A stretch of 44,493 nt of DNA, from contig JAESQS010000138.1 in NCBI GenBank assembly GCA_016765035.1, positions 1 to 44,493 on the forward strand, read 5' to 3'. The notes beneath the pieces are model-generated. The model made no database searches. It saw only the letters and a program-made list of their open reading frames with translations, and had not been told where the DNA came from. This DNA is from Kordiimonadaceae bacterium (GTDB lineage Bacteria > Pseudomonadota > Alphaproteobacteria > Sphingomonadales > Kordiimonadaceae). This document shows positions 22,089 through 24,202 of the stretch, piece after piece (the first letter of the stretch is position 1; every line of letters begins with the position of its first letter). The position numbers and the translations under genes were made by a program.

Positions 22089-22511
22089 CTACGTTCGAAT
22101 GAGCTCGATCTGGTACCCATCTGGGTCTTTGATAAAGGCAATAATATCAGTTTCCTGCTTCCCCTTTGGGGGGAAAGCCATTGGGCCGGGGGCACGTGTG
22201 ATTTGTATGCCTTGGTCTTCTATCATTTTACAAGTTGCGTAAATGTCCGTGACCGCTAGGGCTAGGTGCCCGAATGCGGTGCCGTGTGTTTGCTCGGATG
22301 GGTCCCAATTATGGGTAAGCTCAATGGCAGTATGGGCATTTTCATCACCATAGCCAATGAAGGCCAAGGTGAAACGGTTTTCACTATAGTCTTCTCGGCG
22401 CAAGAGGTTCATACCCAAAATTTCCGTATAAAAGGCCAGTGATTTTTCAAGGTCAGTTACGCGGATCATTGTGTGCAAAATCCGGTGCGGCTTTAGGTTT
22501 AGCTTGCTCAT
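22089..22511 (-). CDS. gloA: Lactoylglutathione lyase (glyoxalase I)
   Basis: The enzyme isomerises the methylglyoxal-glutathione hemithioacetal to S-lactoylglutathione. The 140 residues hold the four metal ligands of the E. coli-like class: His13 (LHTMIRV), Glu64 (AIELTHNW), His82 (FGHLAL) and Glu136 (YQIELIR). Characteristic blocks FYTEILGMNLLRR and DPDGY are present. It has no long insertions, which fits a nickel-type bacterial enzyme. Its partner gloB, which hydrolyses the product, is in the same window at 36351-37115 but is not linked in an operon. Confidence 0.96.
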   Translation of the reverse strand: MSKLNLKPHRILHTMIRVTDLEKSLAFYTEILGMNLLRREDYSENRFTLAFIGYGDENAHTAIELTHNWDPSEQTHGTAFGHLALAVTDIYATCKMIEDQGIQITRAPGPMAFPPKGKQETDIIAFIKDPDGYQIELIRT

Positions 22512-22617
22512 GCTGTTCTCGTTTACGGTTTCTGGATAGCGAGGAAGGGGATGGTGCCAAACACAAGGCTTGGCACCAATTGGAGTGGCCGGTGATACAT
22601 ATAAACTGCATAGGCTT

Positions 22618-23244
22618 CTAGCTGAAGAAGGGTGAGCCCATATCGCGGCTTGCTTCTTCGGTTACGGCTGCGTCAAAAATACGTGTTGTATAGGCAGCAT
22701 TCATGGTCCGTGTCTCTGTTGGGAAATAGTCGAGAGCGAATTTTTTGGCGTTTTTAAGAGTATCGAATGCATAGATGCCACCAGCAGAGTTGCTATGCAG
22801 GCCACTGAGCCATGTTTTGGAAAGGATGCCTGCCTGTTCTTTTAGGGCAGGGTTGATATCCTGCCATGGCAGATCCTCAAACGGAACGCTGATTTGCACT
22901 TCCGTATAAACATAAGCGCCGGGCTTAATGTCCAGTTTTTCACCAAAGTGAACAGACTTCATATCGCGGCTGGCTTCTTCAACAATTTCAGCGCTAAATA
23001 TGCGTGTGGTTTGTGCCACGCCAAATTTTTCTGCTTCGCCGGGGAAATATGCGGTCACAAAACTCTGTGCGTTTTCAATGGTGTCGAACGTGTATAGACC
23101 ACCAAGTGAGTTAGTCTCAATACCAGACAGCCACGTTTTATTTAAGATACCGGGTTGTTGCTTCAAGCTAGTATTTACTTGTTTCCACGGTGCGTCATTG
23201 AAGGGTTTATTGATCTGCAGTTCTGTGTAAACGAAGGCTTTCAT
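22618..23244 (-). CDS. YdhR-like protein with two tandem domains
   Basis: The 208 residues are two copies of one domain of about 92 residues (roughly 5-95 and 112-203). Both contain YTE(L/V)QI, PWxxxN, GIL(N/S)KTWLSG, a GG-Y-FDT stretch, YFP and EEASRDM. The domain resembles the YdhR mono-oxygenase-like family, small ferredoxin-like-fold dimers; here the two halves may form a dimer in one chain. No catalytic residues are certain. The gene is divergent from a TetR regulator and separated from it by three matching palindromic operators, so it is very probably controlled by it. Confidence 0.75.
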   Translation of the reverse strand: MKAFVYTELQINKPFNDAPWKQVNTSLKQQPGILNKTWLSGIETNSLGGLYTFDTIENAQSFVTAYFPGEAEKFGVAQTTRIFSAEIVEEASRDMKSVHFGEKLDIKPGAYVYTEVQISVPFEDLPWQDINPALKEQAGILSKTWLSGLHSNSAGGIYAFDTLKNAKKFALDYFPTETRTMNAAYTTRIFDAAVTEEASRDMGSPFFS

Positions 23245-23304
23245 TTTCTTTCTTTCTATTTCTGCTGCCGCATAGGCATTGACTTTTTCGGCGTAAACAA
23301 CAAT

Positions 23305-23376
23305 ATAACGATCGTTATTAATTGTTATTTATGTAACGGTCGCTATATTGTCAACCAATTAAATAACGATCGTTAC
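23305..23376. promoter_or_regulatory. Three TetR-type operator palindromes
   Basis: ATAACGATCGTTAT (23305-23318) is a perfect palindrome. GTAACGGTCGCTAT (23333-23346) and ATAACGATCGTTAC (23363-23376) are related near-palindromes. The centres are 28 and 30 bp apart, near three helical turns, which would place the bound proteins on about the same face. They lie between the divergent tandem YdhR-like gene and the TetR gene and can cover both promoters. Confidence 0.8.
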
Positions 23377-23395: not shown

Positions 23396-24004
23396 ATGAC
23401 TAAAACAGAGAAAAAACCAGCAGGATGGAAGCGGGAAGAAACTCGCAAACGTATGCTGGAGGCGGTTGGCCGCAGTTTCCGGCAGCATGGGTTCGCGGGT
23501 GTTGGAGTGGATGCTATTGCAAAAGAAGCAGGTGTGACCTCTGGTGCATTTTATTCGCACTTAGGATCAAAAGATGCTGCATTTGAACTGGCAGTCGAAG
23601 CTGGGCTTAATGAAGTAATAGACGCAGTGCCAATTTTCCAAACTGAAAATGGGGATGGATGGGTGCAAGCTTTTGCTGACTATTATTTGGGCGCTGCTCA
23701 CCGTGATGACTTAGAAACCGGATGCGCCATGACCACATTGACACCAGAGATTGCCCGACAAAGCAGCTCGTTGAACGTCCTGTATGAACGCAAGATGCAA
23801 ACCATTGCGGATCTTATCGCCAAAGGGTTGGTGGGCGATGATACGAGTACGATGAACCGGGCATGGGCGATGCTATCAATTTTCACAGGGGGATTGAACC
23901 GGTCGAGAGCCATTGCCAGTAATAGCGTGTCAGAGCATGTGGCGAGTACTGTTAAGGAAACAGTTGTTCTCATAGCAGGTGACATCGCTGATTTAAGAAG
24001 CTGA
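23396..24004 (+). CDS. TetR-family transcriptional regulator
   Basis: The 202-residue protein has the N-terminal TetR helix-turn-helix at about residues 12-60, with the classic VDAIAKEAGVTSGAFYSHLGSK stretch split over the recognition helix and the FYxHFxxK-like end. The C-terminal half is the ligand and dimerisation domain, with no motif that tells the ligand. Three operator palindromes lie 20-90 bp upstream, so it should repress itself and the divergent tandem YdhR-like gene until an inducer binds. It starts at ATG 23396 after AGGACC. Domain call is firm, target call is inferred from layout. Confidence 0.92.
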   Translation: MTKTEKKPAGWKREETRKRMLEAVGRSFRQHGFAGVGVDAIAKEAGVTSGAFYSHLGSKDAAFELAVEAGLNEVIDAVPIFQTENGDGWVQAFADYYLGAAHRDDLETGCAMTTLTPEIARQSSSLNVLYERKMQTIADLIAKGLVGDDTSTMNRAWAMLSIFTGGLNRSRAIASNSVSEHVASTVKETVVLIAGDIADLRS

Positions 24005-24072: not shown

Positions 24073-24202
24073 TAGAGCATATCTGGTTTAATTAGAGTCA
24101 CTTCCGCCCACGCCCCCTACCCAACCACCCCACAGTGTATCCTAGCGGGTGGTTGGGTAGGGGGCGTGGGCCGGTGATGCCTAGTAAACCAAATATGCCC
24201 TA
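24073..24202. repeat. Full-length palindromic intergenic element
   Basis: Two arms of about 55 bp (24073-24130 and 24147-24202) are inverted copies of each other around a 16-nt centre, CACAGTGTATCCTAGC. The inner 30 bp of the arms (CGCCCACGCC through CCAACCACCC) are nearly perfect. The outer ends read GAGCATAT on the left and ATATGCCC on the right. It has no coding capacity and resembles a REP or MITE-like element. It fills most of the gap between the TetR and lipoprotein genes and ends beside the AAGGGG ribosome-binding site of the next gene. Confidence 0.9.

Follow-up and report, generated by a model that had tools for sequence, protein, structure and literature searches.

A probable autoregulated TetR switch over a tandem ydhR-like gene and gloA in a Kordiimonadaceae bacterium

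Which regulator do the three palindromes between a tetR gene and a tandem ydhR-like gene serve, which genes do they control, and what would that regulator respond to? We analysed a 44,493-nucleotide stretch of DNA from a Kordiimonadaceae bacterium (the window), in which the region between these two divergent genes carries three ATAACGATCGTTAT-like palindromes with centres 28 and 30 bp apart. Both the palindromes and their spacing are exactly those of the original prediction, and the flanking genes are also as described there, with tetR at 23396–24004 on the forward strand and the tandem ydhR gene, which encodes two PF08803 stretches, at 22618–23244 on the reverse strand.

The two outer sites are strong. 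Operator C (23305–23318, ATAACGATCGTTAT), proximal to ydhR, is a perfect match and conserved in relatives, and operator A (23363–23376, ATAACGATCGTTAC), proximal to tetR, has one mismatch. Operator B (23333–23346, GTAACGGTCGCTAT) in the middle is weak, with three mismatches and three of its seven base pairs broken; its position is conserved. None of the three is assigned to a strand. Allowing up to three mismatches, these are the only matches in the whole window, for which 0.96 would be expected by chance, and all three fall within 72 bp. When the 151-bp intergenic region was dinucleotide-shuffled 20,000 times, three such sites never arose, and on the strength of shuffles of intergenic regions we rejected chance palindromes. 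With at most one mismatch, the 3.36-Mb assembly to which the window belongs (76% complete) contains the two strong sites only, and a reversed control pattern has no match at this threshold in the same assembly.

Tandem YdhR proteins are rare in the order, as judged from 301 of its genomes. Five Emcibacteraceae genomes encode one divergently from an orthologous TetR (56–62% identity). A search of named genomes with a five-member alignment yielded 23 tandem-ydhR loci, and further loci came from a class-wide sample; the same genome contigs gave no relatives when the single window protein served as query. By their records, the 23 loci come from alphaproteobacteria, gammaproteobacteria and a small number of other bins, some of which may be misbinned. 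Plasmid matches to the tandem YdhR are distant (38–46%). Many of the tandem-ydhR loci have an adjacent TetR gene. In the class sample of 385 genomes, and leaving the window's genome aside, a close TetR occurs only in four of the five genomes with a full-length tandem ydhR, and it adjoins ydhR in all four (Fisher p = 6e-9, a descriptive value only, as the genomes are related). At one locus (L046:4001-5420), two tandem-YdhR genes follow each other, giving four YdhR-like domains in a row, with neither TetR nor operators in the sequence examined.

The sites follow the regulator. Counting sites with up to two mismatches in the 400 bp upstream of ydhR, we find two or more close together at 14 of the 16 tandem-ydhR loci with a TetR and at one of the 12 without (Fisher p = 5e-5, descriptive because the loci are related by descent); the sample includes the near-identical L041 and L042, and the counts themselves are likewise descriptive. 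At least two sites were found in 0 of 4800 shuffled upstream regions. Across 17 genomes scanned with at most one mismatch, nearly all matches fall at this locus, and the consensus of 51 sites is symmetric and reads about AATATAACGATCGTTATATT. In the window's own genus, three genomes encode an orthologous TetR (54–59% identity) that faces a different divergent gene, and the sites are retained; a more distant TetR (37–43% identity) keeps a perfect site, with gloA nearby. Since the sites are kept where the divergent gene differs, they belong to the TetR and not to ydhR. Judged by these sequence comparisons, the three palindromes are almost certainly operators of the adjacent TetR that serve the divergent gene; the operator assignment in the original prediction is borne out by the co-occurrence and by conserved promoter positions (see below). 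L053 is the exception, with sites present and no TetR in the approximately 1.7 kb upstream of them to the contig end, as might be seen if the palindromes were targets of another, unlinked regulator and stood beside TetR by chance. As this upstream sequence is so short, a TetR may lie elsewhere, and the fact that sites and TetR go together from locus to locus, even where the divergent gene has been exchanged, makes an unlinked regulator very improbable.

The promoter layout accounts for where the operators lie. A perfect (6/6) ydhR −35 box, TTGACA, is found at 23349–23354 on the reverse strand, and most operator-bearing relatives also have it between A and B. The probable ydhR −10 box, TAAATA (23326–23331, reverse strand), follows after a 17-bp spacer and is a weak match missed by a strict scan, and ydhR −10 boxes across the loci are weak matches as well. 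On the forward strand, the probable tetR −35 box TTGACT (23279–23284) and −10 box TATAAC (23304–23309) are spaced by 19 bp here and by 17 bp in the Emcibacteraceae relatives. A strict sigma-70 scan near both promoters gave nothing above chance, and the boxes thus rest on their conservation. Operator A directly precedes the ydhR −35 box and falls within the tetR leader, operator B fills the spacer of the ydhR promoter, and operator C overlaps both the tetR −10 box and the expected start point of ydhR. The number and positions of the sites are therefore explained without helical phasing.

Phasing had been part of the original prediction, and this part is not supported. With 10.5 bp per helical turn, the window's spacings of 28, 30 and 58 bp amount to 2.67, 2.86 and 5.52 turns. 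Among relatives the A–B distance is 28–32 bp and the B–C distance mostly 23–30 bp, with 35 bp in one locus. Because spacings vary from 23 to 35 bp and turns are non-integral, no fixed helical phase is conserved, and we rejected helical phasing of the sites on these grounds. Three sites about 24–31 bp apart do recur in about ten tandem-ydhR loci, which would suit a phased, cooperative array of TetR dimers that contact one another. Nevertheless, several loci retain A and C alone, 53–57 bp apart, with B degenerate (B is degenerate or lost in L055, L065 and L066), and this, together with the irregular spacing and the fact that promoter coverage already explains the positions, makes an array of this kind improbable.

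The DNA itself shows the sites, that they are conserved together with the TetR, where they stand relative to conserved promoter boxes, and a gene neighbourhood that is conserved too. The regulator has a TetR_N helix-turn-helix domain, and the palindromes overlap both divergent promoters and are conserved with it. We consider it very likely that TetR binds these sites and represses, and the locus as a whole is probably a divergent, autoregulated TetR repressor switch over tetR and ydhR-gloA. Bound TetR dimers would block the ydhR-gloA promoter, with A abutting the −35 box, B in the spacer and C at the start point, and they would also block the promoter of tetR itself, with C over the −10 box and A and B in the leader. 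Until an inducer frees TetR from the operators and derepresses the operon, ydhR-gloA would consequently stay repressed and the repressor would control its own expression. Classical divergent TetR autorepressors, such as tetR/tetA of Tn10, have more than one operator, and the window resembles Tn10 in its divergent genes and in operators that overlap both promoters; it differs in having three operators of unrelated sequence and target genes that do not encode efflux. The switch is real, broadly conserved in alpha- and gammaproteobacteria and mechanistically ordinary. It is apparently unstudied, as literature text searches found no prior study of a tandem YdhR/TetR operator system.

The original prediction did not mention the gene that follows ydhR on its strand. 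It encodes a GloA-like glyoxalase I of 140 aa (22089–22511, reverse strand) with 146.6 bits against TIGR00068 (cut-off 120) and 48% identity to E. coli GloA. The two genes probably form one operon with gloA as the second gene; the 106-bp gap between them (22512–22617) contains a stable 11-bp hairpin without a T-run (z = −2.1), so that co-transcription is only putative. The statement that the sites control ydhR is correct in so far as they serve the divergent gene and too narrow otherwise, as gloA is probably part of the same target operon, whose first gene is a different one in same-genus relatives. Linkage of gloA is seen at several loci, with or without ydhR, and in many other relatives no gloA was found near ydhR.

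In most of the Emcibacteraceae loci, ydhR is followed by a gene for a small exported protein and then by gloA. In the three genomes of the window's genus, TetR faces an exported protein of approximately 160 aa; gloA follows in two of the three, and one genome has a tautomerase-like gene between the exported-protein gene and gloA. At the locus of the distant TetR (37–43% identity), the open reading frame between TetR and gloA is tautomerase-like by eye and has no Pfam match. Judging by gene order, the first gene of the putative ydhR-gloA operon is exchangeable for one encoding a secreted, predicted barrel or a tautomerase-like protein. The secreted protein (approximately 150–165 aa; L032:3734-4207, L033:3316-3816, L034:3285-3785 and L036:1980-2435) is a recurrent partner of TetR and gloA and is absent from the window, where the hairpin between ydhR and gloA stands in the place in which relatives encode it. 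It matched no Pfam family and is predicted to form an eight-stranded beta barrel with weak likeness to dirigent proteins and allene oxide cyclase (no E-value below 0.001).

The tandem YdhR-like protein (208 aa) matches PF08803 with E = 7.8e-16 and 58.3 bits (gathering threshold 27.1) and consists of two dimeric-alpha/beta-barrel (ABM-like) domains without a signal peptide. Its AlphaFold model has a pLDDT of 93.8, and a single domain superimposes on E. coli YdhR (1wd6) with 25% identity and an rmsd of 1.8–2.0 Å. E. coli YdhR (PDB 1wd6, 2hiq and 2asy; PF08803) thus shares domain family and fold with the window protein but is a single domain, whereas the window protein comprises two fused copies and several relatives add a Tat-type signal peptide (L049, L053, L057, L058, L064, L066, L067 and L068). 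Since only some relatives have this peptide, tandem YdhR appears to be exported by some bacteria and to stay in the cytosol of others. Pfam labels PF08803 only as 'putative mono-oxygenase', and the whole model resembles two-domain ABM-like proteins, including anthrone-oxidase-like and PenE monooxygenase structures. An independent precedent for pairing an ABM-fold protein with a glyoxalase comes from extracts of a report on Pseudomonas aeruginosa arqI-gloA2, in which the two are co-transcribed and induced by glyoxal (PMC12274486). According to the same extracts, ArqI is an ABM domain protein most like LsrG and not a tandem YdhR, and they describe no TetR operator array of the kind present in the window (PMC12274486).

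The regulator is a TetR-family protein of 202 aa (PF00440, E = 1.2e-10, 41.5 bits against a cut-off of 24). Its sole cysteine, Cys110, occurs without exception in the 18 subfamily proteins aligned and lines up with Cys106 of NemR, although a Cys/GC motif occurs in other TetR proteins too and is also visible in 2fd5. E. coli NemR is a TetR-family sensor of electrophiles and bleach that controls nemA and gloA; it senses glyoxals and quinones via Cys21 and Cys116, and reactive chlorine via Cys106 with Lys175 (PMC5297802). In both systems a gene for a TetR-family repressor is linked to one for glyoxalase I, but the window genes are divergent where nemR is co-directional, there are several operator copies, and a YdhR-like protein takes the place of the flavin reductase NemA. 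In the window TetR, equivalents of Cys21 and Cys116 are absent, and the position of Lys175 is Arg171 in all relatives. Several other NCBIfam TetR models rank ahead of NemR, which is also only the eleventh PDB profile match, with a similarity of only approximately 37 bits. Since Cys21, Cys116 and Lys175 are not conserved and the profile rank is distant, the window TetR is not a NemR orthologue. A thiol switch through Cys110 is plausible from the alignment despite this.

Because gloA is linked to this TetR, whose invariant cysteine aligns with NemR Cys106, and by analogy with NemR, the inducer may be a reactive carbonyl, a quinone or an oxidant sensed through Cys110, a choice that we make tentatively. 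GloA and the YdhR-like protein would then detoxify the inducer. The original prediction had suggested an oxidisable compound; given the linked glyoxalase and Cys110, we infer that a reactive electrophile or an oxidant is the better match. It is also conceivable, if somewhat doubtful, that a small aromatic or polyketide-like ligand binds in the TetR pocket, with the YdhR-like protein as its monooxygenase or binding protein, Cys110 structural and gloA incidental. Several points would suit such a ligand: binding of small ligands is the rule among TetR repressors, the anthrone-oxidase-like and PenE structures match the tandem ABM-like fold, and several relatives have ydhR without a nearby gloA. 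The strict conservation of Cys110 and the repeated linkage of gloA even where ydhR is missing argue against it. Returning to an electrophile or oxidant as inducer, the conserved arrangement is probably a switch against reactive chemicals. A more speculative extension, which we regard as rather unlikely, is that this TetR represents an unrecognised family of cysteine-based electrophile or oxidant sensors. Such a family would have its own operator and would control an interchangeable detoxification cassette, where GloA is accompanied by a tandem YdhR, by a secreted dirigent-like barrel protein or by a tautomerase-like protein; the tandem YdhR, exported through the Tat pathway in some cases, would handle a reactive carbonyl or quinone.

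Structures of the YdhR family are about two decades old and a function is still missing. A conserved promoter that is inducible and has its own repressor gives a workable route to the inducer of YdhR, and from there to the class of its substrates. Because the operator is tight, the regulon can be predicted across alpha- and gammaproteobacteria. The glyoxalase in common and the invariant cysteine lead to a definite hypothesis, namely a switch for reactive carbonyls or oxidants that parallels NemR and ArqI-GloA2.

Just after tetR, at 24106–24171, the window carries a perfect 25-bp inverted repeat with a 16-nt loop. It belongs to a repeat family with 74 matches in the genome at up to three mismatches, several of them at contig ends, and is a REP/MITE-like element.
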